Shown here piece by piece: positions 13,176 to 62,687 of a stretch of DNA of 64,000 nt. Each line of letters opens with the position of its first letter. Within the stretch, counting starts at the first letter, position 1. This DNA is from Tessaracoccus sp. MC1679. Lineage in GTDB: Bacteria > Actinomycetota > Actinomycetes > Propionibacteriales > Propionibacteriaceae. The notes below the pieces were generated by a model. The model was not told the DNA's origin and ran no database searches. It saw only the letters and a program-made list of their open reading frames with translations. The stretch spans positions 62,001 through 126,000 of the forward strand of contig NZ_JACJGB010000009.1 in assembly GCF_014164775.1 (NCBI RefSeq), in the 5' to 3' direction. Position numbers and translations under genes: made by a program.

Positions 13176-14350
13176 TGGCCACCGTCAAGGACCTTTTCTC
13201 CAAGAACCTCCGCCAGAGCGGCATCGTCATCGCGTTCGTGGCGATCGTGCTCCTGTTCACGGTGCTGACCGGCGGGACGCTGCTCAATCCCATCAACGTC
13301 AGCAACCTGATCCTCCAGTACTCCTACATCCTGATCCTGGCGATCGGCATGCTGTTCGTCATCGTCGTGGGCCACATCGACCTGTCGGTGGGTTCCGTGG
13401 TGGCACTGGTGGGCGCGGTCTCGGCAACGCTGATCATCAAGAACGGCATGCCGTGGTATGTCGGCGTCATCGCCGGCCTCATCGTCGGCCTCGCGATCGG
13501 CGCCTGGCACGGCTTCTGGGTGGCCTACGTGGGCATCCCGGGCTTCATCGTGACGCTGTCGGGCATGTTGCTGTTCCGTGGTATGACGTTCCTCGTGCTG
13601 GGCTCGGTCTCCCTGTCCCCGATGACCCCGGAGTACCAGCAGATCGCCAACGGCTTCCTCAACGGGCTGTTAGGCGGTAACGGCTTCGACCTGTTCACGT
13701 TGCTCATCGGCGTGTTCGCCATCGCCGGCTTCGCCTGGACCCAGTGGCGCAGCCGCAGCGCCCGCATCCGCTACGAGCAGGAGGTGGAGGGCATGCCGCT
13801 CTTCATCTTCAAGCTGGTCGCGGTGGCCGTCGTCGTGATGTTCTTCGCCTGGAAGCTTGCCACCGCGCGTGGCTTCCCGATCGTGCTGATCATCCTGGCC
13901 GTGCTGGTGCTGGTCTACTCGTTCCTTGCCAAGAACTCGATCTACGGCCGTCACGTCTACGCCATCGGCGGCAACATCAACGCCGCCCTGCTCTCCGGCG
14001 TCAAGGTCAAGCGCACCATCTTCTGGGTGTACGTGCACATGGGCCTCCTCACCGGCGTGGCCGGCGTGGTGTTCTCCTCACGCACCAACGGCGCCCAGCC
14101 GGGCGCAGGCAACATGTTCGAGCTCGACGCGATCGCGGCCTGCTTCATCGGTGGCGCTGCCGTCACCGGCGGCGTGGGGACCGTGATCGGCGCCATGATC
14201 GGTGGTCTGGTCATGGCCGTCATGAGCAACGGCATGCAGCTCATGGGCGTGCAGACGTCCATCCAGCAGATCGTCAAGGGTCTGGTGCTGCTGCTCGCGG
14301 TGGCGTTCGACATCTGGAACAAGCGTCGGGCCGCGGCCGCCAAGGCCTGA
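13175..14350 (+). CDS. gguB: sugar ABC transporter permease
   Basis: A 391-residue permease of the GguB/XylH/MmsB type with about ten membrane segments. The conserved GHIDLSVGSVVALVGA stretch is near residue 67 and the C-terminal GGAAVTGGVGTVIGAM stretch near 325. I chose the ATG at 13175, which overlaps the gguA stop as TGATG and has GGGAGG seven bases upstream; a GTG one codon earlier is possible. It completes a ChvE-GguA-GguB importer, ended by a 20-bp hairpin. Confidence 0.94.
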   Translation: MATVKDLFSKNLRQSGIVIAFVAIVLLFTVLTGGTLLNPINVSNLILQYSYILILAIGMLFVIVVGHIDLSVGSVVALVGAVSATLIIKNGMPWYVGVIAGLIVGLAIGAWHGFWVAYVGIPGFIVTLSGMLLFRGMTFLVLGSVSLSPMTPEYQQIANGFLNGLLGGNGFDLFTLLIGVFAIAGFAWTQWRSRSARIRYEQEVEGMPLFIFKLVAVAVVVMFFAWKLATARGFPIVLIILAVLVLVYSFLAKNSIYGRHVYAIGGNINAALLSGVKVKRTIFWVYVHMGLLTGVAGVVFSSRTNGAQPGAGNMFELDAIAACFIGGAAVTGGVGTVIGAMIGGLVMAVMSNGMQLMGVQTSIQQIVKGLVLLLAVAFDIWNKRRAAAAKA

Positions 14351-14360
14351 TCCGTCCGCA

Positions 14361-14409
14361 ACGCGACACGGCGCCCGGGAGCCCCCCACTCCCGGGCGCC
14401 GTGTCGCGT
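14361..14409 (+). terminator. strong hairpin terminator of the sugar transporter operon
   Basis: Arms 14361-14381 and 14389-14409 pair perfectly over 21 bp around a C-rich seven-base loop, ten bases after the gguB stop. The following bases are not T-rich. Confidence 0.85.
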
Positions 14410-14445
14410 CGCCACGGAAGACCCTACGAGTCGGAGCTCCCCCTA

Positions 14446-14545
14446 CCCGTTGGCTGAGGAGCCGCGGGTCGGCGACGAGGGCTTCCCCGTTGGCTGAGGT
14501 GCCGCGCAGTGGGCTGGAGCCCTCCCCGCTGGCTGAGGTGCCGCG
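14446..14545 (+). repeat. three tandem REP-like units
   Basis: The 21-mer CCCGTTGGCTGAGGTGCCGCG occurs at 14486 and, with one or two changes, at 14446 and 14525, giving a 39-40 bp period. The last unit continues into GAAGCGGCCTCGAAGCC, which can fold back on it. Units of this TTGGCTGAG...CCTCGAAGCC kind are common intergenic repeats in Propionibacteriales. Confidence 0.65.
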
Positions 14546-14638
14546 AAGCGGCCTCGAAGCCTAAGAAACGCGAGCCGACAAGCCAACTCGCCCGACGCGT
14601 CGAGGCCTCGACACCGTCGCCGACCCCACCGCAACCCC

Positions 14639-44744: not shown

Positions 44745-44806
44745 AGAGTGAGAATCCGGGGAGATAGAGCCCTCTGGCGGCCATCTCCCCGGATTCTCAC
44801 TCTTTT
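44745..44806 (+). terminator. strong terminator at the left edge of the accessory island
   Basis: Arms 44745-44765 and 44783-44803 pair perfectly over 21 bp around a 17-base loop, and the stem ends in a run of T (44803-44806). It ends the TM2 transcript and insulates vsr. Confidence 0.88.
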
Positions 44807-44878
44807 GGTTTCGCCTGCATGACACTGATGGGTATGAGTTCATCGGAGTCACCCTCCGAGCCTCAACCGAGGGCTGCA

Positions 44879-45346
44879 ATGCCAACGCCGTTGAGCGCAG
44901 GCGTCTCCGCGCAGATGCGACGGATGCCACGGGCCGGCTCTGAGCCCGAGATGCGTCTCCGCCGGCTCCTTCACCGCCGGGGTCTGCGCTTTCGAGTCCA
45001 GGCGCCCCTCCCCGGCCGGCCCGACATCGCCTTCACCCGCGCGAAGATCGCCGTGTTCGTCGACGGCTGCTTCTGGCACCGCTGTCCGGAGCATTCAACA
45101 GCTCCCAAGAACAACCACGACTGGTGGGAGGCGAAGCTCACCCGCAACGTGGAGCGGGACCGCGAGAAGGATGCTGCCCTGCAATCCATGGGCTGGCTCG
45201 CGATTCATGTGTGGGAGCACGAGGATGCGGGGGAGGCTGCCAATCGCATCACAACGCTGTGGCGAAGTGCGGTTGGGCGTGTCCAGACTGGCAGAATGTC
45301 AGAAGGCTGTGACATCCTGGAGGATGAGACCACCAGCCACGAATGA
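44879..45346 (+). CDS. vsr: very-short-patch-repair type endonuclease (Vsr)
   Basis: A 155-residue Vsr-family nuclease. Family landmarks are present: AGSEPEMRLRRLLHRRGLRFRVQ (about 23-45), PGRPDIAFTRAKIAVFVDGCFWHRCPEHS (catalytic Asp in PDIAF and metal-linked Cys/His), W-x2-K-x2-RNVERD and a final IHVWEHED. Vsr enzymes nick next to T:G mismatches that arise when 5-methylcytosine is deaminated, so its presence fits the cytosine methyltransferase gene in the island. The start is uncertain: the ATG at 44879 has GAGGG five bases upstream, but the frame is open with ATGs at 44819, 44828 and 44834. Confidence 0.88.
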   Translation: MPTPLSAGVSAQMRRMPRAGSEPEMRLRRLLHRRGLRFRVQAPLPGRPDIAFTRAKIAVFVDGCFWHRCPEHSTAPKNNHDWWEAKLTRNVERDREKDAALQSMGWLAIHVWEHEDAGEAANRITTLWRSAVGRVQTGRMSEGCDILEDETTSHE

Positions 45347-45361
45347 GTCAGGAGTGATCGG

Positions 45362-46645
45362 GTGAGTGCCTGCCCAACGTTCTCGGTCGCGCCATCGGCC
45401 TTCCGACTCACGACCTCGCTCCGGGACATTGGATATGACCTCCAGTCTGCGGTCGCCGATCTCGTCGACAACAGCATCGCGGCCGACGCAGACCGGGTCG
45501 TCATCAAGTTCGAGGGCGACGGCGACTACCGGGTATTGATCGGGGACAATGGCGCCGGGATGTCCGACGACCGTGTGCATGAGGCGTTGAGGTTCGGGTC
45601 GCGGCGGGAGTACGAGCGCGGCGAGCTCGGACGATACGGGCTCGGCCTCAAGACCGCGTCCCTCTCTCAGGCGCGCAAGCTGACCGTGGTTTCGAGACCT
45701 CGGGGAACAGATCGGATCACGATCCGCCAGCTCAGTCTGGATCTGGTGGAGAGGTTCGACAAATGGGTGATCGTGGAGCCCTTCGAATCCCCGGCGATCA
45801 CCGAGGCGGCAGCCCTTCTGTCTGAGGGACTCAACACTGTGGTCGTGTGGGAAGACCTCGACCGCGTGATCCCGGAAGGGATGGCCGACGGATGGGCCAG
45901 GCGACGCATGACCGCTTCTGCCGAGCGGACCGCCCAGCACCTCTCGATGGTGTTTCATCGGTATCTCGACGGAACCCGCGGGGACGTCGTCACCATCGAG
46001 ATGGACGGCCAGGCGCTTACCCCTTGGGACCCGTTCGCCCGCCACGAACGCAACACCCTGAAGCTGCCGTCGCAGACATTTGAGGTTGCTTCAGCCGGGG
46101 TGGCTGGGACCGTCACGCTGGACCGTTGGGTCCTGCCCCCACGGCATCAGTTCAGCTCACAGGCAGCCTTCGAGATGGCCGCGGGGCCACTGAAGTGGAA
46201 CAGGCAACAGGGCATCTACATCTACCGCGCCGACCGGTTGGTCCAAGGGGGCGGCTGGGCGGGGCTGCGCGCGATCGACGAGCACACCAAGATCGCCCGA
46301 TGCGCATTGCGTTTCGACACCGATCTCGATGCAGCCTTCAACATCAACGTGGCCAAGATGCGCGTCTCACTGCCGCCGCAGCTGAAGACGATGCTCCAGC
46401 GCCCAGTGCAGGAGATGTGCAACCGCGCTGAGGCCGTCTACCGACAGGCCAACGTGCACACGGAACGCGCTGAGTCCACGAAGAGGACCGCCGTCGGGAG
46501 CCTCAACGCCCAAGCCGGACTGGCCATCCTCGCGGCCGCCTCGGCTTCGGGCCAGTTGGACCCCCTGCGCTCGATCGTCCAGGCACTGCGCCTAGAGTCG
46601 CCGGAACTTGCCACCACTCTCGGCTTGGACGAGCTCGCAGTCTGA
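45362..46645 (+). CDS. GHKL ATPase, MORC/MutL-like (island subunit A)
   Basis: A 427-residue protein with an N-terminal GHKL ATPase fold. N-box: AVADLVDNSIAADA (Asp33, Asn37); G1: LIGDNGAGM (Asp62, Gly64); G2: LGRYGLGLKTAS (Gly90-Lys97). A second fold of S5 type follows, with KWNRQQGIYIYRADRLV (about 280) as in MORC and Hsp90-like ATPases of restriction systems. Such ATPases dimerise on ATP and probably clamp or loop DNA. The GTG start has GGAG eight bases upstream, 16 bases after vsr, so both are one operon. It converges with the methyltransferase gene, five bases apart. Confidence 0.85.
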   Translation: MSACPTFSVAPSAFRLTTSLRDIGYDLQSAVADLVDNSIAADADRVVIKFEGDGDYRVLIGDNGAGMSDDRVHEALRFGSRREYERGELGRYGLGLKTASLSQARKLTVVSRPRGTDRITIRQLSLDLVERFDKWVIVEPFESPAITEAAALLSEGLNTVVVWEDLDRVIPEGMADGWARRRMTASAERTAQHLSMVFHRYLDGTRGDVVTIEMDGQALTPWDPFARHERNTLKLPSQTFEVASAGVAGTVTLDRWVLPPRHQFSSQAAFEMAAGPLKWNRQQGIYIYRADRLVQGGGWAGLRAIDEHTKIARCALRFDTDLDAAFNINVAKMRVSLPPQLKTMLQRPVQEMCNRAEAVYRQANVHTERAESTKRTAVGSLNAQAGLAILAAASASGQLDPLRSIVQALRLESPELATTLGLDELAV

Positions 46646-46650
46646 AGTGA

Positions 46651-48603
46651 CTACTTGATGGGCTGTGGACTCCCCTCGAATTCTCTCCGAGAAGGTCGAA
46701 GCTGAGCCGTAAGGCAGTGCTCTTCCAGCGGACACTCACCACACCGGGGCCGATCAGGAACACAGATCGCAGCGGCCAACTCAATCAGTCCCAGCTGCGC
46801 GCTCCGCGAGGTCTTGCCATTTCCGATCATGCGAGCGATGGCCAACCGACCGTCAGTGAACTTATTGTGAATATCCGACGAGGTGCCTGAGAAGCGCGCC
46901 GCGACACGCGAAATGCCCGCTCCAGAAGTGACCGGCTCCTCCTCGCTCAGTCCATCCACCAGGACCGCCATGGCCGCCGTGGTCTGGTTGACCCCCGGCA
47001 GCTTGATGAGTCCCTCATCAGGCAGATCCGGTTCATCTGCCATGATCTGGGCCAAGCTGATAACCAGCTCCGCTTTTGCAGTGCGCCCGATCAACCGCCC
47101 GACGGCTCGAACCACATCGCGGTTCTCAAGTGTCTCCTCGGGCTTCGTCATCGCTCCTTCAATGACTGCCCAGGCTTGCGGCACCATCACCGCCGTGAGG
47201 CGATCGAGCAGAACCCCGGCCTGAATGACCTGCCAGCGATTCCCACGGAGCCACGGCACCGTCAACTTATCCCTCGCGGTGAACCACGTTGACACGGCTC
47301 CAGCGAGCTCACGGGTCGAGTAGCTCCGCGCCGCCCCCTCAGCGAGCGAGGTCAGCACCGACCGGGCGAGATGACGCCCCAGAAGGGGCGGCACAGCGTT
47401 CCCGATCTGCTTGAAGGCAGCGGATGGCGGGCCGTTGAAGCGGTACCAGTCAGGAAAGGTCTGGATGCGTGCAGCTTCACGAACGGTGATCGTCCGGCCT
47501 TGACGTGGGTGGATGTACCAGTATCCATCCTTGGCAATGTGGGCCGTGATCGTCCGCGAGACGTCGTTCTCATCGAGTCGCTTGTACTTGTCGTCGAAGA
47601 TGTCGTCCCGGTATCGCTTGAACTCGTCTGGAAGCTCCGAGTACTTCGTGTCAGGACTCATCAGCGCGAAAGCCTGAGCGTCGTCGGCGCGAACTGGTCT
47701 CGTGATGTGATCGAACACCTTGCGACTGTCCGCCTCCGGCACTCCCTCGCGCATCTTCCGCTGGAATGCGGTCTGCGGAGCCGCATACCCTGCCCAGCCG
47801 TATTCTCCGCCGGCTGGGCGCCATCCCCCCTCGACTGGAGGCAGGTCACCGATCGCATTCCAGACCGTCACTCGATGGTCCGACTCCGCCGGCCACCGGT
47901 ACTGAACCCCATCAGCAAGCGCAACCACGATAAGCCTCTGCCGGAACTGGGGAACCCCATACCGCCAAGAGTCGACGACCCGCACTTCCACGGAGTACCC
48001 CAGGACCTCGAACTCCTCAACCATTGTCCGGAGGATGAACATCTCCGGATCCAGCGCCATGTCTGGGACGTTCTCCATCAGCACAGCCTCTGGCCGAGCG
48101 AGGTCAACCACTTCCATGAAGGAGCGCCAGAGATCCCTGCGCTGGTCGTGCGATTCGCGCTGACCGTTGCGGACGAGGTGACGGATGCCTGATCGGCCTG
48201 CCTTGGAGAACGGCTGGCACGGAGGGCCACCTGCGAGCACCGTGATGCCGCACTCGCGCATGAGGCTGGCGACCTGTTCGATCCGATCAGGCTCTGACAA
48301 ATCCCAGTCGACCGAGAGGCCAGGGAAGTGGTGTGCGTGGGTCTTGACGGCCTCGGCGTAGTGATCGACGCCGAGCACTACCTCCACCCCCGCCTGGTGG
48401 AGCCCAAGGCTCAGTCCGCCGGCTCCAGAGAATAGGTCTGCAGCAAGCCTGGTGCCGGGCGACCCCCGCTTCAGACTCCGGCACAAGCCGGCCAGCGCCG
48501 CTGGGCTCTTCACGTGCCCGGGATGGGGGGGAAGCTGCAGAAACGGTCCCCGGACCAGCTTGACACCGAATCCGCCATCCTTGGTGGTGCCCGCCGAGTC
48601 CAT
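46651..48603 (-). CDS. DNA cytosine-5 methyltransferase fused to an HhH/Fe-S glycosylase-like domain
   Basis: A 650-residue fusion. Residues 50-440 are a cytosine-5 methyltransferase: motif I DLFSGAGGLSLGLHQAG, motif IV GGPPCQPFS with the catalytic Cys, motif VI ENVPD, motif VIII QFRQRLIVVA and motif X QIGNAVPP. Residues about 450-640 resemble the EndoIII/MutY family: WQVIQAGVLLDRLTAV, the HhH hairpin LIKLPGVNQTTAAMAV (about 534) and four cysteines of a 4Fe-4S loop (AAICVPDRPRCGECPLEEHC). The EndoIII Lys is Thr here, and the catalytic Asp region reads TSGAGISRV with no Asp, so cleavage is doubtful and DNA reading more likely. The ATG at 48603 has TAACAT six bases upstream. Confidence 0.88.
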   Translation of the reverse strand: MDSAGTTKDGGFGVKLVRGPFLQLPPHPGHVKSPAALAGLCRSLKRGSPGTRLAADLFSGAGGLSLGLHQAGVEVVLGVDHYAEAVKTHAHHFPGLSVDWDLSEPDRIEQVASLMRECGITVLAGGPPCQPFSKAGRSGIRHLVRNGQRESHDQRRDLWRSFMEVVDLARPEAVLMENVPDMALDPEMFILRTMVEEFEVLGYSVEVRVVDSWRYGVPQFRQRLIVVALADGVQYRWPAESDHRVTVWNAIGDLPPVEGGWRPAGGEYGWAGYAAPQTAFQRKMREGVPEADSRKVFDHITRPVRADDAQAFALMSPDTKYSELPDEFKRYRDDIFDDKYKRLDENDVSRTITAHIAKDGYWYIHPRQGRTITVREAARIQTFPDWYRFNGPPSAAFKQIGNAVPPLLGRHLARSVLTSLAEGAARSYSTRELAGAVSTWFTARDKLTVPWLRGNRWQVIQAGVLLDRLTAVMVPQAWAVIEGAMTKPEETLENRDVVRAVGRLIGRTAKAELVISLAQIMADEPDLPDEGLIKLPGVNQTTAAMAVLVDGLSEEEPVTSGAGISRVAARFSGTSSDIHNKFTDGRLAIARMIGNGKTSRSAQLGLIELAAAICVPDRPRCGECPLEEHCLTAQLRPSRREFEGSPQPIK

Positions 48604-48609
48604 GAGTAG

Positions 48610-48615
48610 ATGTTA
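48610..48615 (-). promoter_or_regulatory. leaderless-type -10 element of the methyltransferase gene
   Basis: TAACAT followed by CTACTC and the ATG at 48603. The position, within the 46-base gap after the effector operon, gives the methyltransferase its own transcript. Confidence 0.6.
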
Positions 48616-48649
48616 GGGGAACTATCCGACAGCGCTCCGCCTCGGCGGC

Positions 48650-49438
48650 TCAGCTTGCGGACTCAGCAGCCGCCCTGCGAGGTGCTCCACGACTCATCAC
48701 TGCCTCCGCGCACTCACCGACGAGGTCGCCCAGTTCATCGACGGTGAGGATGTCCAGGTTGAGCGGTCCCGAGCGGTAGGTGATCTGCTTCATCAACGCC
48801 CGCGCAAACTCACTTCGCGCACCGTCCTGCCCACTGAAAGAGATGACCTCCTGAGCAGCGAGCCGCACTAGGCGTGCGTTCCTTGCCACCGCAGATCGCT
48901 CGAGCAGAGCGCCGAACTCATCCTCTCCGAGTTTTGGCGACGCTTCCTCCATCACCTGCCCCAGCACACGCCAGCGTCGCCATGAGAGCTTGAGGTAGTT
49001 GCGATCGCGCCCTACTTGTCCGCCGATCCAGCGATCCTTCGAGAGCTCGAATGCGGGGGACTCTGCCGGCCACCTCCTGTGAACCACATCCGGGAACATT
49101 GCGAGAGACAGGAAGGACCAGACGCCGTCCGAGGCCGCATCACTGGGGCTCGGCCTGATCTCTGAATCGAGCGCCTTGCCCAACTCGATGCCATAGATGT
49201 CGTTGTCGAACTTCGAGCCCGTCTCCAAGTGATCCAGCGCATGCATCACGCCCTTTCGCCACCGCTGGAGGTCCGCGCTGTTCGCGGCCTCCCCACCAGT
49301 TGCGTTGGGGACCGCCTCTACCCTGTCGAAACGAACCAGCTCACCGGGACGCTTCCCAGCGGCGAGATCGGCCTGGATCTCCTCGAGTCTGGCCGAAGCC
49401 TGACCCGGTGAGAAACGCGGGATGAGCTTGTGCGTCAC
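48650..49438 (-). CDS. uncharacterised island protein (possibly DUF6339)
   Basis: A 262-residue soluble, mainly helical protein. The central SDGVWSFLSLAMFPDVVHRRWP (about residue 110) and the following NYLKLSWRRWRVLGQVME look like conserved signatures; I recall similar proteins, labelled DUF6339, next to Z1-domain genes, but cannot verify this. No nuclease or ATPase motif is visible. The GTG start overlaps the stop of the previous gene by one base and has GGGAG six bases upstream. It is the last gene of the five-gene effector operon. Confidence 0.65.
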   Translation of the reverse strand: MTHKLIPRFSPGQASARLEEIQADLAAGKRPGELVRFDRVEAVPNATGGEAANSADLQRWRKGVMHALDHLETGSKFDNDIYGIELGKALDSEIRPSPSDAASDGVWSFLSLAMFPDVVHRRWPAESPAFELSKDRWIGGQVGRDRNYLKLSWRRWRVLGQVMEEASPKLGEDEFGALLERSAVARNARLVRLAAQEVISFSGQDGARSEFARALMKQITYRSGPLNLDILTVDELGDLVGECAEAVMSRGAPRRAAAESAS

Positions 49439-50316
49439 TACTGTCTCCCTTCCAGAAGCCCGGTGGCCGCACGGAGTCTCGTGAAGACGCGGTCTCCGTC
49501 CCCGTGGACTGCGGAGATGGCCTCGGCCAGCCCCATGCGCAGATAGGTTGAGCTCAACTCCTGAAGTACGTGGCCCACCGTGCCTTCCTCATACTCAGTT
49601 GGAAGCTCATCCGACCATCTACTGGCCGCTGACACGAGCAGTTGTTCGACCACCCCATGGAACAGCACCGACCGATGGATGCTTGCAACTCCAGACAACA
49701 GCGTGCTGGCCGCCGGATGCCCCGTATTGATGAAAAGCCGGACAGCACCCATGAAAGGCTCGTCCAAAGAGTCCGCTCGGAAGTTGAGGTGCCAACAGGC
49801 CTCCGACGGGTAACCTGTCGGCTCGAAATCGAAGGCCTCTGTAGGAAACCCCGCCGCATCACCCTCAAGCGGGAACCGGTAGCTCCTGGTGGGGGTGTAG
49901 ACCCTGCTGCCGCGCTTACTCGCGGCCATCTCAAGCCCCACCTCACGTTCCCTGTCGAGCACGAGGCCGTAACGGACCTCGAGCTCGCCCGCGACGGTAT
50001 GCGGGCCGATCCGGACCTGCAGTGGGGCTTCCGCGCCAACGGCTGACAGCACCGGTACCGTCACGGTCTCGCGGAAGCCGGTTGCCCTGCAGTCCACCTG
50101 AATCGTTCCGCTCAGACCATCGAGGTCCCTCATACCGGTGGAACGCAACAGTTCGTCCGGCTCGACTCGAAAGAAGCCCAGGATCGTTGGTGCAGCCAGG
50201 AAGTCCCAGCTTGGGACAGCGTCTCCAGCCTCGAAAATCGCATCCCCGACCTGGAGCCGGGGAGGAGTGAACTGGACGGAGGCCTCCGAGGCTGTCCGGA
50301 AGGGCATCGCGCGCAT
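49438..50316 (-). CDS. uncharacterised island protein, beta-rich
   Basis: A 292-residue protein that I do not recognise. The N-terminal 150 residues alternate short hydrophobic and polar stretches as in beta-sandwich proteins (VPVLSAVGAEAPLQVRIG, TVAGELEVRYGLVLDRE). The second half is more helical, with FRADSLDEPFMGAVRLFINT and ASTLLSGVASIHRSVLFHGVVEQLL. No catalytic motif is apparent. It could be a structural subunit or DNA/phage-component sensor. The ATG overlaps the previous stop as TGATG with GTGAGG upstream. Confidence 0.6.
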   Translation of the reverse strand: MRAMPFRTASEASVQFTPPRLQVGDAIFEAGDAVPSWDFLAAPTILGFFRVEPDELLRSTGMRDLDGLSGTIQVDCRATGFRETVTVPVLSAVGAEAPLQVRIGPHTVAGELEVRYGLVLDREREVGLEMAASKRGSRVYTPTRSYRFPLEGDAAGFPTEAFDFEPTGYPSEACWHLNFRADSLDEPFMGAVRLFINTGHPAASTLLSGVASIHRSVLFHGVVEQLLVSAASRWSDELPTEYEEGTVGHVLQELSSTYLRMGLAEAISAVHGDGDRVFTRLRAATGLLEGRQ

Positions 50317-52145
50317 CAGGCCTCACCAGCCGCGAACTTGAAGTCAATCGCCAATCCCGCCGGGAAACTGATATCAGCGAACACCTTCTGCCCTGGGGGC
50401 AGCTCGATCACATCTGCCCTGACCGAAGCCCCGCCCTCGAAAGTCCACTGCTTGAGCACAACCTGCCCTTCTGAGGCCATCACGCCGCCGTCGACCGCAA
50501 GGGACAACGATGCCGCATGGACTGGGACCGCCGACTTCGAGCCGGTGACCTCCAAGGCAACCCGCGTCGTCTGGCGGTCTTGTCTCCAATCGTCTGATGA
50601 CTGCGGTATCGGCAGTATCTCAAGGACCTCGACCCTCGGTTGGTGCGATCTGGCCTTGCCGCGCGGACCTGAAGCCTTCGGTCGGTTCGTCGCTATGGGC
50701 CCCGAGGACGAGCCGACGAGTCCGGCCAACGCCACCGCCAACTGGCCTGTAGAACTGGCCTCCTTAGCTACGACGTCAGACTTCGCAGGACCTCGAAAGA
50801 TATTCGCACTCTCCCGTGAACGCTCCAGAGCCAGCTTGACGAAGGTCCTGTGCCGCGGGTCCTCAAGCCCTCCCGGATTCCAGGAGTCATGAGCGGGTGG
50901 CTCAGCGGCAGCGAACACCGAGTCGAGTTCCTTCAGAGGCTTGAACACTCCAACCCAGCGTGTGAGTCCGTCCGCTGTCGGTCCAAGCATCTCATCGCGG
51001 ACCACAAGCTCTGCTCTGTTACGCATGAAGATCAGGGAGTCTGCGGCATACCCATCACCATCGTCGGCGCCTGCCAGGTATTTCGTCAGTGCGATGTGGC
51101 CAAGGAGTTGGCGCGGGCGATGACACCAAATCTCCTGGACCTGCACCAATGGGTGAGGCTCAGAGGCCCCTGTGCCGACCTGTCTGAGCGAGGTCAGGCA
51201 CCTTGCCGCAGCCTCAAGAGCCGCAGAGCCGGTGAGCCCGGGCAGCGGAAGGTCGACACCGTCACGAGCAATCCCGATGTCCATACGCCTGTCCATCGGT
51301 TGATCGGTGTCGAGCTTCGGCCAAAGATTGCGAGTGACCGCCTGCGTCCAATTGTCGACGAGTTCATCGACGTCTTCGCGACCCTTCGGCTGCAGGATCA
51401 GGATCGAAGTACCGGTCTCATCGTCAGCAAAGCGACGCTCAAAGACAGCGTGTCCCAGGGTGCGGGCGTCGTCGCCGACGGCCGGTTCCACTCGGAACAC
51501 AGCCTGGGTATCAGGTGCGTCGGCCGAGAAACCCCACCACTGTCTTCCGGTGTATCGCTGCCCGTCCACGACGAACCTCGAGCCCATCGCTGACGCGATG
51601 AAGCGCTCCTCGAACGAGCCGTCCGCGTGTCTGAACCTCGACCAGATGACGATGGTCGAGCACTCGCTGGCGAGGTACGCGGCCGTCTTGCCGAACCCGT
51701 AGGTGCCGCCCCCATAGCCGTGCTCAGGTGGCGCACCAATCGTGAGCACGAAGTCGGCGAAGTCGGCGGGTTCACCTGCAGCGGGATCGATGTCGTTTCG
51801 GGTGGGCCCACCCAGACCCTTCGTTCCCCGATCGAGCACCTCCACAGCGCACAGATCAGTCGAATTGATCGCCCGTTCCAACCCAAGGTTTTCGGACCAC
51901 CTCCCACCAAAGACATTCCACCTGAGGACGTCTCGTACGTTGTCGTCGAGGCTTCTGAAGCGCATCTCAAAGCGAGGCACCACGCCATCGAGCCTCGCGT
52001 CCCAACTGTTCTGTGCCATCTCTCGCACTAGGAGGCTGGCAGGATTCACTTCAGGCTGGCCAAGCATCTTCTTCGAGCCCTCGCCGTCCGTGTCACCAGC
52101 ACCGAAAGGCTTCGGGAACCACTGGAGATCGGGAAGACCAATCAC
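50316..52145 (-). CDS. second GHKL ATPase (island subunit B)
   Basis: A 609-residue protein with a different GHKL ATPase from subunit A. N-box: LLVREMAQNSWDA (Glu42, Asn46, Asp49); G1: VEVLDRGTKGLGG (Asp105, Gly107); lid and G2: HGYGGGTYGFGKTAAY (about 142-157). Trp- and Arg-rich strands follow (RQWWGFSADAPD), then a helical region with KLALERSRESANIF, and a C-terminal beta-rich domain after residue 480. The GTG start overlaps the DUF4420 stop as GTGA. Two unlike GHKL ATPases in one island is a feature of the restriction-associated MutL/MORC systems described by Iyer, Abhiman and Aravind. Confidence 0.8.
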   Translation of the reverse strand: MIGLPDLQWFPKPFGAGDTDGEGSKKMLGQPEVNPASLLVREMAQNSWDARLDGVVPRFEMRFRSLDDNVRDVLRWNVFGGRWSENLGLERAINSTDLCAVEVLDRGTKGLGGPTRNDIDPAAGEPADFADFVLTIGAPPEHGYGGGTYGFGKTAAYLASECSTIVIWSRFRHADGSFEERFIASAMGSRFVVDGQRYTGRQWWGFSADAPDTQAVFRVEPAVGDDARTLGHAVFERRFADDETGTSILILQPKGREDVDELVDNWTQAVTRNLWPKLDTDQPMDRRMDIGIARDGVDLPLPGLTGSAALEAAARCLTSLRQVGTGASEPHPLVQVQEIWCHRPRQLLGHIALTKYLAGADDGDGYAADSLIFMRNRAELVVRDEMLGPTADGLTRWVGVFKPLKELDSVFAAAEPPAHDSWNPGGLEDPRHRTFVKLALERSRESANIFRGPAKSDVVAKEASSTGQLAVALAGLVGSSSGPIATNRPKASGPRGKARSHQPRVEVLEILPIPQSSDDWRQDRQTTRVALEVTGSKSAVPVHAASLSLAVDGGVMASEGQVVLKQWTFEGGASVRADVIELPPGQKVFADISFPAGLAIDFKFAAGEA

Positions 52146-53122
52146 AGGCTCATCATTTCGTTCATGCGTCGCCTCAGCTCCTCGTCGTCAAGTTGCCCTG
52201 GGGCGCCAGCCAGGGACAGCGTGTAGGTAATGTGAGAGATCGCGGCCCGTCGAGCCTCCGGAATCTCAGAGGTCCTCAGCCCTGGAAAATCCTCTCCGAC
52301 CTCCCATGCTAGGACTGGACCGTCCAGTGCGAACTTGTGCTCGTCACTGTCCACACCCAGCAGGAATCCGCTTCCCGCCATCCGTTGAATCAGCTCGTCA
52401 CGTAGACATCCCCTTTTCGCTAGATCGTCCACCACCGCGCCGATGTTCCTGCCAGCGGGCGATGAGACCACATGCAGCCGAACCAGCGTGAGACGTGCGT
52501 CGTTGATTCGATCCAACTGATCCAGGCTCGAGATCGCGACTTCAAGGGCATCTCTCTGGGACGACTTGACCTCGATGTCGCCGTTGGGGGTACTGAAGTC
52601 ATGCTTTGCCTTATCCGGCCCGGTCCAGCACTCGACGGCATAGAGAGGATTGCGCTCAGCCAGCATCGCCAATACCGAGAGCTCACCGAAGAGGCCTCTG
52701 GCGGCGTCCTCGCTGAGTGATCGGGCTGGGCGAAACAGCTCCTGCCAATCGTGGAGAGCGCCGAGAAGTGCAGCGTGGGCCAGTTCCTCGCGGCTCAACA
52801 TCCTTTCCACGACGCTGTCCGCGAGCAGGCTGAAGACTTGGGTGAGATGACCAGACTCGCAGGTCAGGTCGAGGTAGCGGACGCCGGACTCGGGATGCGT
52901 CCAGTCCGTGAGCTCTATCTGCTTGCCCGACTGGCTGTTGAACGCGTACCCCGGCTCGATCGGAGCCATGATGTGCAGCTTGGATGCTGGATCGGCACCG
53001 TAGAGAAGTGCGCTGCCCGCCGTATCGTGCGCAGCCTCGACGACAAACACGTTGCTGCTGGTGCCCGCGGCGTACACATCCGCGAGCAGCAGAGAGAACC
53101 TCTCACTCGCCCGACTCATCAT
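52142..53122 (-). CDS. PD-(D/E)XK motif nuclease-like protein (DUF4420)
   Basis: A 326-residue protein of the DUF4420 type. The nuclease core is visible: Glu in LFGELSVLAML (about residue 146), then KAKHDFSTPNGDIEVKSSQ (about 173-190), where Asp and the Glu-x-Lys pair supply the metal-binding PD-(D/E)XK triad. It is the best candidate for the DNA-cutting subunit of the island. Of several start codons the ATG at 53122 has GGAGG at six bases; the gene then overlaps the Z1 gene by 20 bases. It precedes subunit B with a four-base overlap. Confidence 0.85.
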   Translation of the reverse strand: MMSRASERFSLLLADVYAAGTSSNVFVVEAAHDTAGSALLYGADPASKLHIMAPIEPGYAFNSQSGKQIELTDWTHPESGVRYLDLTCESGHLTQVFSLLADSVVERMLSREELAHAALLGALHDWQELFRPARSLSEDAARGLFGELSVLAMLAERNPLYAVECWTGPDKAKHDFSTPNGDIEVKSSQRDALEVAISSLDQLDRINDARLTLVRLHVVSSPAGRNIGAVVDDLAKRGCLRDELIQRMAGSGFLLGVDSDEHKFALDGPVLAWEVGEDFPGLRTSEIPEARRAAISHITYTLSLAGAPGQLDDEELRRRMNEMMSL

Positions 53123-55718
53123 CACCATCCTCCTGCTGGTCAAGCACCTCGTCCCCTTCGACAGTCTCAGGGATCTCCCACATTGGTCTCACCGAGACAA
53201 ACGCACCTGCCTCCCCATTCACATCGTTCACGTTAGGGAAGAAGATCACGAATCCTAGAAGGTGGTGATCAACTGGAAGCGCGATACGGTTCCCACCCTC
53301 GAGCTTCGGCGCGGAGTTCTTGCTGATCGGGTAGACGAGGATCAGGCCTCGGCCTCCACCGTGAAGCCGTCGGAGTCGGCGGCGCTGCTCATCCGTTGAG
53401 TGAGGGTCACCTCTGTAGACCGCAGGATCGATGTCGCGGAGCCTGTCGTCGGGGGACATGATCGCTTTGAGATTGATCTTGTCTGAGGTGCTGTCCTCCA
53501 ACGCGGACCTGTTGGCGCAGCGAAGTTCAACCTCCCCGATCTTCAGCGTTCCGAGATTCGAGCCAGCCTTTTGGGGGGTATCGACGAGGATGACGTTCCA
53601 GAGAGGGCCCCCAGCCCACTTCCCCACCCACTCAGTCAGTCGCTCGCGGTTGTCCGTATCCTGAAGCCAGGACTGGCTATCGTGCGCACGGAATTCACGC
53701 AGGAAGTCGACGACTCGGTGACCAGGAACGTCCCGAACCATCGGACTCGAAGTCTGGCCCGGACTGGAAGTCAATTGGAGTCCACGGATCAGAGCCGCCA
53801 CCGCCTCCACGTTCCTGCCAGTCAGCCCTTGATCTGACCCATCCAGGATGAATGTCTGATTGGCCGTACCACTCAACCCAAGCTGCACGACACTCGCGTG
53901 GAACATCTTGTTGGCAGCAGTCACCTGAAGCCGGCCGGGGTGGGCACGGACCTTCACGCCAACTTCCTTGGGGGTGAACTCGCTCCCCTGAACCGAGCCG
54001 ATCTCGGCACGCAGGTCCTGCTCTACTCTCGCCAGGAACGCATAGTCGGCGTCGAGCCCGTCGGTAACCCAGACTCGGGGTAGGTCCTCATACCTGGGCC
54101 GATACCCAAACCAACGACCCATCTGCATCAACGTGTCGTACGTGTTCGACGTTCGGGTGAAATACGAGACCACAAGCCCTTCCAGAGTCAGTCCACGCGC
54201 CAACGTTCCGCCTCCGATGGCCACCACGGTGTGCTTGCGATCATCGTCATAGTTCAGCCGATCCGCCGAGGCTCCATTGTCGACGATCACATCGATGTCG
54301 TTGAGGACAGCGCTCAGGCGCTGCTCCACCTCTGACCAAACTGGCAGTGGGGCCGTTGCGGCCCCTGAGACCCTGCCTGACTCCTCCTGCCACGCAGCTA
54401 CGAAAGCGGCCAGCTGTCCAGCCGCAACTTCCTGACGCGCCGATTCGACAAGCTCTCTGAGGCGGAGAGCCATCGCGAAGTGCGGAGCGGTGTAATGCGT
54501 CGTGTGGACGAGCATTGATGAGTGCCCGATGTCCCCCCGCGCCCACCGGATTGCGGTTGCCACCACAAACCAGGCAAAGGCCTCACGGAGCGATCCTGGG
54601 AGGTCAGGGTCGAATGACTCCCGAGCCTCCTTGCTGCTCGGTGGACGCAGAGCATCTGAGTCTTCCTTCGGGATCCTGCGGACCATGTCCAGACCGTCGG
54701 ACCCGGCACCGTCTTCCTCGTCGACGGATTCGGCAATGCCGAAGACGCGGTCGGAGCCGAAGTAGCCATCCCCCGGCTCGATGGTGGTGAGGAAGTCTGA
54801 CGGGAAGAGCTCCTCGTCATCCTCTGGATCCATCAGGACATTGGCGAAGGGCGTTGCGGTGTAGGCGACGTAGCTTCCTGATTCCACCGACGCCCACAGC
54901 TCGCGGAGACGGCGATTGATTGTGGAGATCCGCTGGCGCTCGGCCAAGGAGTTGGGGGTGGCCTGATCTGCCTCGTCATCCACGATGAGCACTGGGTGGA
55001 GGCGGCGAATCTCCTGCGGGATCGCTCGCATCATCTTCACGAGGTACTTGAGCCTAGTCGGGTTCTTCTTGACGACGGCACATAGTGCCGGCTGATGCAC
55101 CATGAGTTCCTGTGGCTTGGGAAGGGGGACGAAATCGCGCTCCTTGTCCGTCAACGGGTACCAGCCCTCGACGTGGAAGAGGTCCCTCGTGAGTCTTGCC
55201 TGCGTCTGCTCGCGGAGATTGTTATTGATCCCAGACAGGACGATGACAAGCTTGTAGCCGGCGTCAACCGCCTTCGCGATGACGCCTGCGAAATTGCGGG
55301 TCTTGCCGGACTGGACGTTGCCCATCACCAGCCCTTTGCGCTTCTGACCGTGATGACTTGGGTCTGCTAGCAAACCGACGATGGACTCAGTTTCGGAGCC
55401 CAACGCTTCGATGCCTTGCTCCCGGCGGTGCTTGAGCAGGGCCTCATAGCGACTCCAATGGCCAGTCTCACTCGGACCCAGGTACCACCCTTCGCCGTCG
55501 TAGCTCTCAGGGTTCAAGACCGCAGCCCTGACAACCTGATGGGCCTTCTGTTTCTCCTTCAACTCCGCGTAGACCTGGTCGACAGCCGCGTGGTCGGTCA
55601 TGAAGCTCTTCGCGTGCTCGGCAGCTTCTTCAAGTCCCATGCGCAACTGGGTTATGGCTCCAAGGATCGCGTTGCGAGCCATGTGGAGGACTACTTCCTG
55701 CTGCGTTGGAGGGACCAT
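53103..55718 (-). CDS. Z1-domain superfamily II-type ATPase
   Basis: An 871-residue ATPase with the Z1 domain. Walker A: VMGNVQSGKTRNF (about 130-142) followed by SGINNNLREQTQ; Walker B: VLIVDDEADQATPN (about 247); then YVAYTATPFANVL; and the C-terminal motif TLEGLVVSYFTRTSNTYDTLMQMGRWFGYR (about 510-540 in total), which replaces helicase motif VI. It is the predicted motor of the system. The frame extends to 56132 through the GNAT gene, but TAGCCT seven bases before the ATG at 55718 supports this start; an ATG at 55682 is an alternative. It heads the five-gene operon. Confidence 0.88.
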   Translation of the reverse strand: MVPPTQQEVVLHMARNAILGAITQLRMGLEEAAEHAKSFMTDHAAVDQVYAELKEKQKAHQVVRAAVLNPESYDGEGWYLGPSETGHWSRYEALLKHRREQGIEALGSETESIVGLLADPSHHGQKRKGLVMGNVQSGKTRNFAGVIAKAVDAGYKLVIVLSGINNNLREQTQARLTRDLFHVEGWYPLTDKERDFVPLPKPQELMVHQPALCAVVKKNPTRLKYLVKMMRAIPQEIRRLHPVLIVDDEADQATPNSLAERQRISTINRRLRELWASVESGSYVAYTATPFANVLMDPEDDEELFPSDFLTTIEPGDGYFGSDRVFGIAESVDEEDGAGSDGLDMVRRIPKEDSDALRPPSSKEARESFDPDLPGSLREAFAWFVVATAIRWARGDIGHSSMLVHTTHYTAPHFAMALRLRELVESARQEVAAGQLAAFVAAWQEESGRVSGAATAPLPVWSEVEQRLSAVLNDIDVIVDNGASADRLNYDDDRKHTVVAIGGGTLARGLTLEGLVVSYFTRTSNTYDTLMQMGRWFGYRPRYEDLPRVWVTDGLDADYAFLARVEQDLRAEIGSVQGSEFTPKEVGVKVRAHPGRLQVTAANKMFHASVVQLGLSGTANQTFILDGSDQGLTGRNVEAVAALIRGLQLTSSPGQTSSPMVRDVPGHRVVDFLREFRAHDSQSWLQDTDNRERLTEWVGKWAGGPLWNVILVDTPQKAGSNLGTLKIGEVELRCANRSALEDSTSDKINLKAIMSPDDRLRDIDPAVYRGDPHSTDEQRRRLRRLHGGGRGLILVYPISKNSAPKLEGGNRIALPVDHHLLGFVIFFPNVNDVNGEAGAFVSVRPMWEIPETVEGDEVLDQQEDGDDESGE

Positions 55719-55725
55719 GCGAAGA

Positions 55726-55731
55726 AGGCTA
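55726..55731 (-). promoter_or_regulatory. leaderless-type -10 element of the effector operon
   Basis: TAGCCT, seven bases before the Z1 ATG at 55718. No clear -35 box is visible. Confidence 0.5.
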
Positions 55732-56430: not shown

Positions 56431-56898
56431 ATGACATCAGCCGAGGACCCCGGCATCCACACGCCGGTCACCTTCGAGAGCTGCTCCCACGTCGAGGGGC
56501 CGTTCTACCACGGCACGAAGTCGGCGGTCGAACCCGGCACCGAGCTGGTTCCCGGCCACGGCTCAAACTTCCACGCGGGGCGGACGTCGAACAACATCTA
56601 CTTCTCGGCGCTGGTGGAGACGGCAGTGTGGGGAGCGGAGCTGGCCACGGCCCTGGCCGACAGCGCCGAACGCGGTCACGTCTACGTAGTCGAGCCCACG
56701 GGACCGTTCGAGGACGACCCCAACGTGACCGACAAGCGATTCCCCGGCAACCCCACGCAGTCCTACCGGACCCAGCAGCCGCTGCGCGTTGTCGCGGAGC
56801 TTGAGCACTGGGAGGGTCACGACCCTGTGGTGCTCAAGGGCATGCTGGACCACCTCGCCCAGCTCCGGGAGCAGGGACTCGACGTCATCGAGGATTAG
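56431..56898 (+). CDS. arr: rifampin ADP-ribosyltransferase
   Basis: A 155-residue Arr enzyme, inactivating rifamycins by ADP-ribosylation of the ansa chain with NAD. The family features are clear: FYHGTKSAVEPG with His and Gly for NAD binding (about residue 26), NNIYFSALVETAVWGAELA (about 52), HVYVVEPTGPFEDDPNVTDKRFPGNPTQSYR (about 76-106) with the catalytic Asp. The length is slightly above the usual 140. AGGAGAGAG precedes the ATG. It stands alone between two GNAT genes; chromosomal arr genes are common in environmental actinobacteria. Confidence 0.93.
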   Translation: MTSAEDPGIHTPVTFESCSHVEGPFYHGTKSAVEPGTELVPGHGSNFHAGRTSNNIYFSALVETAVWGAELATALADSAERGHVYVVEPTGPFEDDPNVTDKRFPGNPTQSYRTQQPLRVVAELEHWEGHDPVVLKGMLDHLAQLREQGLDVIED

Positions 56899-56939
56899 CC
56901 GGTGGGCGAGGACTCGACCACTGGCGTCATCGGCGGCGG

Positions 56940-57007
56940 GTCTCGAAGGGTCGTCTCGGACCCCACAAGCAGTTCGTGCTGAACCTCACGCCACGACCCT
57001 TCGAGAC
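56940..57007. repeat. 15-bp inverted repeat downstream of arr
   Basis: GTCTCGAAGGGTCGT (56940-56954) is perfectly complementary to 56993-57007, with 38 bases between. The right arm runs on into GCGCCGCTGCGCGG and CTCCTCAGGG, wording typical of actinobacterial intergenic REP elements. It could also terminate arr. Confidence 0.65.
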
Positions 57008-57073
57008 GCGCCGCTGCGCGGACGACGCTCCTCAGGGAACGAGAAGGTGATCAGGACAGGCGGCCGGTCGGTT

Positions 57074-61253: not shown

Positions 61254-62687
61254 TCAGGCTTGGGTGAGCGTGTCGACGACGGCGGCAAGGGAGTCGGCGG
61301 CGCCGACGTTGCCGGCGAAGACCACGTAGGGGATTCCCGCGGCGGGGCCGTCCTGGCCGGACCACAGGGAGACGATGCCGGGAAGCATCGGGCCGACGAC
61401 ATTGGCATGGCGGAAGCCGAGGCCCTTCGTCGCGACGTCGGAGGAGGTGATGCCGCCCTTGGCGACGACGAAACGCGGCGGGTTGGCGGCCAGCACGCGC
61501 TGGACCACCTCGACGACCGCGGCCGAGACCTGGCGGGAGATGTTGAGTGACTCGTGGCCGTCGGCCCCGGTGACGAGCGTGCGGGAGGTGCGGACGACGA
61601 CGTTGCCGTGGTTCAGGGCCCCGGCGGCCTGGTGGGCGATGTCGGCGACGTGACGGTCGCGGGCGGTGGGATCGGTGACCTGGGCCACCTCGATCTCCAG
61701 CTCGAACGGGTGGTTGTGCTCGCGGAGGTGGTTGAGCTGGCGGGTGGTGAGGTCCACGTGGCTGCCGACGACGATGAGCCCGCCCGTGGCGAGTTCGCGG
61801 TCTCCGCGGGAGGCGCGGATCTCGTCGAGGGTCACCGGGGGGTGGACGGCCTGGCCGATGCGGGCGCGGGTGAATGGCGGGCCGACGCGGTAGATGAAGC
61901 GCGACCCGGCGGTCTCGGCCTCGATCAGCGCGAGGGAGAGCTGGCGGAGGTCCTCCTCCTCGACGATGTCGACGACGATCACGCGGGCGTCCGAGGCGGA
62001 GCGCAGCAGCGCGACGGTGTGGGCGCGGTCGGTGCGGAGCGTGGTGAGATCGATCAGGATGACGTCCGCGGCGCGGGTGGCGCCGTCGGTCTTCTCCTCC
62101 ACCCACTCCGCGAGGCTGGACGACCGGTAGCCGAACGTGGCGTCGCGGGCGAACTCGGTCTCCCCCACCGGTGTGAAGCCGGCGTCGCGGGAGCCGGCGT
62201 AGTGGATGCCGTCGACGGTGATGCGGCCAGCGTCGCCGAACGCGGGGACCACGACGATGCCGTCGACGCCGTGGCCGGTGGCGGTCCGGATCTCCTCGGC
62301 GATGGTCAGGGGCTCCAGAGGGAAGTGGCCGCGCAGCGTCGAGTCGGAGCGGGAGACGAACGCGACGGGGATGTCGCGGGCGGCCTCGAGCGCCGCAGCG
62401 ACGACCTCGCGGTTGACCCGCTCGGCGTCGGCGGGGGCCAGCGAGCGCGAGTTGGTCATCACGTAGACGGCGGGCTTGCCGGTGCCGAACGCCCAGCGGA
62501 AGTCGTCGACCTCCCAGGCGGTGAGGACGGGGAGGTCGGCCACCGACTGCGTGCCGGTGGGGTCGTCGTCGAGGACGACGTAGACGGTGTGGTCGCCCGC
62601 GCGGTGGCGCGCCTCGACGACGTCATCCGCGGTCACGGACACCACGGACGGATGGTTGGTCAACAGATCGGACAGTTCCACTGTCAT
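61254..62687 (-). CDS. otnK: four-carbon acid sugar kinase family protein (OtnK/DtnK)
   Basis: A 477-residue kinase of the DUF1537 family, phosphorylating 3- or 2-oxo-tetronate with ATP. VYVVLDDDPTGTQSVADLPVLTAW (about residues 35-58) and FVSRSDSTLRGHFPLEPLT (about 114) form the substrate-binding N-domain; the C-terminal ATP-binding part has RFVVAKGGITSSDVATKGLG (about 405) and GPAAGIPYVVFAGNVG. AAAGGAG lies four bases before the ATG. It is the first gene of the operon, under a clear promoter and operator. The partner aldolase (OtnC) and isomerase (OtnI) are not in the window. Confidence 0.9.
   Translation of the reverse strand: MTVELSDLLTNHPSVVSVTADDVVEARHRAGDHTVYVVLDDDPTGTQSVADLPVLTAWEVDDFRWAFGTGKPAVYVMTNSRSLAPADAERVNREVVAAALEAARDIPVAFVSRSDSTLRGHFPLEPLTIAEEIRTATGHGVDGIVVVPAFGDAGRITVDGIHYAGSRDAGFTPVGETEFARDATFGYRSSSLAEWVEEKTDGATRAADVILIDLTTLRTDRAHTVALLRSASDARVIVVDIVEEEDLRQLSLALIEAETAGSRFIYRVGPPFTRARIGQAVHPPVTLDEIRASRGDRELATGGLIVVGSHVDLTTRQLNHLREHNHPFELEIEVAQVTDPTARDRHVADIAHQAAGALNHGNVVVRTSRTLVTGADGHESLNISRQVSAAVVEVVQRVLAANPPRFVVAKGGITSSDVATKGLGFRHANVVGPMLPGIVSLWSGQDGPAAGIPYVVFAGNVGAADSLAAVVDTLTQA

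Follow-up and report, generated by a model that had tools for sequence, protein, structure and literature searches.

A probable restriction island in Tessaracoccus with a five-gene core and a separable methylation cassette

The 64,000-nucleotide stretch of Tessaracoccus sp. MC1679 analyzed here, referred to as the window (NZ_JACJGB010000009.1, positions 62,001 to 126,000 of the forward strand), carries at 44745..55731 an island of eight genes, and our analysis confirmed the layout given in the initial annotation. The left edge is marked by an inverted repeat that was missed by a terminator scan with a maximum loop of 8. The genes are assigned below to a cassette and a core:

44745..44803, plus strand: probable terminator, left island edge (perfect 21-bp inverted repeat, 17-nt loop, then TTTT)
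44819..45346, plus strand: Vsr mismatch endonuclease, cassette (a family member by TIGR00632, 121.6 bits against a cut-off of 97.85; PF03852, 66.1 bits)
45362..46645, plus strand: GHKL ATPase A (GHKL A), 427 amino acids, MORC type, cassette (PF13589, 94.7 bits)
46651..48603, minus strand: C5 DNA methyltransferase, 650 amino acids, with a C-terminal MutY/MIG-derived domain, cassette (PF00145, 181.3 bits)
48650..49438, minus strand: DUF6339 protein, 262 amino acids, core (predicted all-helical, mean predicted local distance difference test score 91)
49438..50316, minus strand: 292-residue protein of no named family, core (predicted structure)
50316..52145, minus strand: GHKL ATPase B (GHKL B), 609 amino acids, paraMORC2 type, core (invariant residues, PDC-M33A family match)
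52142..53143, minus strand: DUF4420 PD-(D/E)XK nuclease, MzaD-like, core (PF14390, 143.4 bits)
53103..55718, minus strand: Z1 ATPase/helicase gene, core (PF10593, 218.9 bits)

Judged from its sequence, the island appears to be an anti-virus restriction system, made up of a five-gene cutting machine and a separable cassette that marks host DNA, and we infer functions in both defence and repair.

The five-gene core and its mobility

Invariant positions in all 56 aligned GHKL B sequences comprise E42/N46, D105/G110, G147-G150-G152-K153 and E415xxxH419, the last of which corresponds to the ExxxH motif that PMC2292703 places in the S5 region of paraMORC2. In the DUF4420 nuclease, E154, D182 and E191-x-K193 are invariant in 17 of 17 aligned sequences, matching the E-D-ExK pattern of nucleases with the restriction endonuclease (RE) fold, and this pattern stands in the core together with the DThhQXuRhFG motif of the third type of superfamily II helicase. 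Structure prediction gave the 292-residue protein an Ig-like beta sandwich at about residues 7-156, followed by a helical C-terminus.

GHKL B was found in 3 of 35 other genomes of the genus and had no match among 50,697 phage records. Copies of the core exist on plasmids, and GHKL B occurs on a conjugative Agrobacterium plasmid and on a plasmid of Synechococcus elongatus. On the plasmid of Agrobacterium salinitolerans (L164), genes of the DEAD helicase, EcoRII-N, ATP-binding and HNH kinds come after the core, and no PD-(D/E)XK gene or methyltransferase is listed beside it within the 19.5 kb shown. Restriction-modification units can act as addiction units, and the plasmid copies would suit an account that casts the entire locus as a unit of DNA modification or selfish addiction, killing cells post-segregationally through loss of methylation, with phage defence secondary. 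We regard this account as unlikely, because a core of several ATPases, a helicase and a nuclease resembles defence loci, and because relatives are PADLOC candidates.

The NUDIX and GNAT genes on either side of the island in the window have relatives in genome G007 (L172), which are ~3.6 kb from each other, keep their relative orientation and have no island between them. This arrangement was one case among five relatives checked; of the other four, three had the BFN gene alone and one also had a weak aldo-keto reductase match. Just to the right of the island, an Arr-ms rifampin ADP-ribosyltransferase gene (window 56431-56898, 142.5 bits) lies between two GNAT acetyltransferase genes, and is followed by a second strong inverted repeat (window 56933-57014; 22 nt, 95% complementary, 38 nt apart).

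A cassette found with and without the core

We surveyed 80 core loci, the best 80 of 380 relatives found, scoring GHKL A as window-type above 450 profile bits and the MutY-like C-domain of the methyltransferase as present above 200 bits. Window-type GHKL A occurred in 16 of the 80 loci, 15 of them with the MutY-like-domain methyltransferase; in the sixteenth (L009) the contig ends at GHKL A. Neither threshold was passed in the remaining 64. MzaB-like proteins (319-347 bits) are present in four of these, and a weaker C-domain match in three: a fused form in L004 (120 bits), a gene of MutY type encoding HhH-GPD and NUDIX domains in L069 (155 bits) and a separate glycosylase in L072 (165 bits).

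GHKL A and the methyltransferase, usually with Vsr, were also found as a cassette without the core, next to cutting machinery of other kinds. The initial annotation had treated the eight genes as a single undivided system, a view that this separability does not support. The empty search underlying the cassette-without-core count carried no internal positive control, and the same query matched in 15 of the 394 genomes of an evenly drawn class sample. Among 25 distinct cassettes (the window included, and L121 and L029, which are the same locus, counted once), 24 have the C-domain methyltransferase no more than 0.7 kb from GHKL A, with distances taken between stop-to-stop open reading frames. Vsr is adjacent to GHKL A (<= 57 bp) in 16 cassettes, lies 1.9-8 kb away in seven and was not seen in two.

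The cassette-type GHKL A proteins form one group in a phylogenetic tree, separate from 17 MzaB-like proteins (support 0.47 for all 26 cassette-type tips and 0.96 for 25 of the 26). In an alignment of 20 sequences, 13 cassette-type proteins share 48-55% identity with the window protein and six MzaB-like proteins 29-32%. Residues 284-294 (GIYIYRADRLV) match the MORC motif GhXhhpXXRhl, as given in PMC2292703, and the family profile scored 53 bits against MORC2 and 44 bits against MutL in the PDB.

Several loci weigh against a strict link between GHKL A and this methyltransferase. Seven Mza loci (L123-L129) and L004 carry a methyltransferase with a weaker C-domain (115-158 bits) and no cassette-type GHKL A; the neighbour of the methyltransferase in L126 and L128 is instead the MzaB-like protein. 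Furthermore, the methyltransferase next to GHKL A in L114, L115, L117-L119 and L122 has a weaker C-domain (98-128 bits); all of these loci except L122 have a second methyltransferase nearby that scores 239-249 bits.

In five other sampled actinobacteria the cassette lies beside DrmA and AIPR; the set of DrmA, DrmB, MzaA and MzaE was examined protein by protein in G164 alone. In this genome (L134:5444-8452), and also in L114 and L115, the gene between DrmB and the AIPR gene encodes a large protein that matches the MzaA profile and sigma-70 regions 2, 3 and 4, with a C-terminal stretch matching GHKL A profile positions 209-358. By these profile matches, the three loci are DISARM/Mza hybrids with a sigma-factor-like component.

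A proposed repair role for the cassette

5-Methylcytosine deaminates to thymine, and Vsr is the known answer to this damage. The methyltransferase would protect host DNA, and the cassette would then probably mend the damage caused by the marking, with GHKL A acting in a MutL-like role with Vsr. GHKL A accompanies the methylase, and not one kind of nuclease core, and fits such a role. Profile searches of the window genome, in which named control genomes gave matches, detected NucS and no match to MutS_I; for MutL nothing exceeded the cut-off, and the top match below it was to GHKL A itself. According to PMC6116569, MutL both binds Vsr and stimulates it, also across species.

In core locus L072, where no Vsr was seen, a stand-alone MIG-like G/T mismatch glycosylase (13894-14607) adjoins a C5 methylase and the core. 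Its gene precedes the methylase, and the protein scores 159.7 bits against the G/T mismatch enzyme 1kea and retains the Tyr and the Asp that are catalytic in MIG. Selection thus appears to favour the repair of methylation damage in these islands.

The window methyltransferase itself carries a MutY/MIG-derived domain at about residues 428-635 (mutY profile 49.7 bits, cut-off 286.5). The span of this match across the C-domain, the four Fe-S cysteines retained in alignments, including that to 1kea, and the MIG-like enzyme adjoining such a methylase in L072 would all agree with a reading in which the domain is an active glycosylase taking T or A out of mismatches, and the fusion thereby itself the repair enzyme. 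However, an alignment with 15 relatives, read by eye, revealed no catalytic Asp of the GPD loop at or beside the expected position in any of the 16 proteins, and the HhH hairpin was recognizable in the window protein only, which makes an active enzyme improbable.

Repair by Vsr and GHKL A, our preferred account, faces contrary observations of its own: a Vsr is still present in 47 of the 64 core loci that lack cassette-type GHKL A, the two cassettes mentioned above show none, and the MzaB relatives of GHKL A belong to a defence system. As a tentative extension, which we consider possible but rather doubtful, Vsr, the MORC ATPase and the methyltransferase with its MutY-like domain might form a mobile unit of "private mismatch repair", complete in itself, that allows C5-methylating restriction systems to settle in hosts lacking MutS. 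The prokaryotic MORCs of this clade would then be Vsr-licensing equivalents of MutL, and the MORCs of eukaryotes, whose site of action is methylated DNA, may stem from DNA-methylation guardians and not from restriction motors.

Comparison with known systems

The cassette resembles very short patch repair (the Dcm/Vsr/MutL of E. coli and gonococci) in pairing a C5 methylase and Vsr with an ATPase of the MutL superfamily, but here the ATPase would be a cassette-encoded MORC-type protein in a genome without a MutS_I match. Likeness to DISARM class 2 lies in the methyltransferase, whose best PADLOC match is DrmMII (302.8 bits); none of the eight window proteins matched DrmA or DrmB at E<=0.01. GHKL A, the Z1 protein and the DUF4420 protein are distant relatives of MzaB, MzaC and MzaD, scoring 221.6, 324.2 and 71.5 bits against equivalog cut-offs of 850, 1500 and 420. 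In contrast to Mza, the window proteins include no MzaA match, GHKL B, the 292-residue protein and the DUF6339 protein match no Mza model, and AIPR/MzaE is without a match among the eight proteins, AIPR also in the whole genome. That the two GHKL proteins belong to different families, and that an AIPR gene is missing, had been called correctly from the outset.

PDC-M33, a phage defence candidate in PADLOC-DB whose name a literature search found in no paper, has weak matches to single proteins of the core. All 56 GHKL B family members match PDC-M33A (best E 1.3e-15), the window protein weakly (28.8 bits, E 1.2e-7, no single stretch passing alone). Of five DUF6339 relatives tested, three match PDC-M33C, two at E 1.3e-9 and 2.3e-7 and one marginally at 0.0043; the window protein gave no match at E<=0.01. 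The 292-residue protein and four others of its type have no match in PDC-M33.

The closest resemblance is to the MORC/paraMORC restriction-modification loci in which Iyer, Abhiman and Aravind outlined in 2008 an association of paraMORC2 with helicases, nucleases of the RE fold, methylases and Vsr (PMC2292703). Shared with the window are the DThhQXuRhFG helicase, the E-D-ExK nuclease, the C5 methylase, Vsr, the MORC motif of GHKL A and the ExxxH of GHKL B. Three of the four parts of that text, figures aside, describe neither the 292-residue and DUF6339 partners nor a MutY-like domain on the methylase nor a cassette common to different restriction cores. The initial annotation had placed the island in this class with partial relation to Mza, which agrees with our results, and the genes do travel together in several phyla. 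Its suggestion of an undescribed variant holds in part, since the outline has been known from 2008 on and relatives of GHKL B and DUF6339 appear in a PADLOC candidate. The locus belongs, as a variant, to the 2008 MORC/paraMORC restriction class and is not Mza. New here are the five-gene core, defined as a recurrent unit, and evidence for one cassette of modification, repair and a MORC ATPase that is exchanged between restriction systems.
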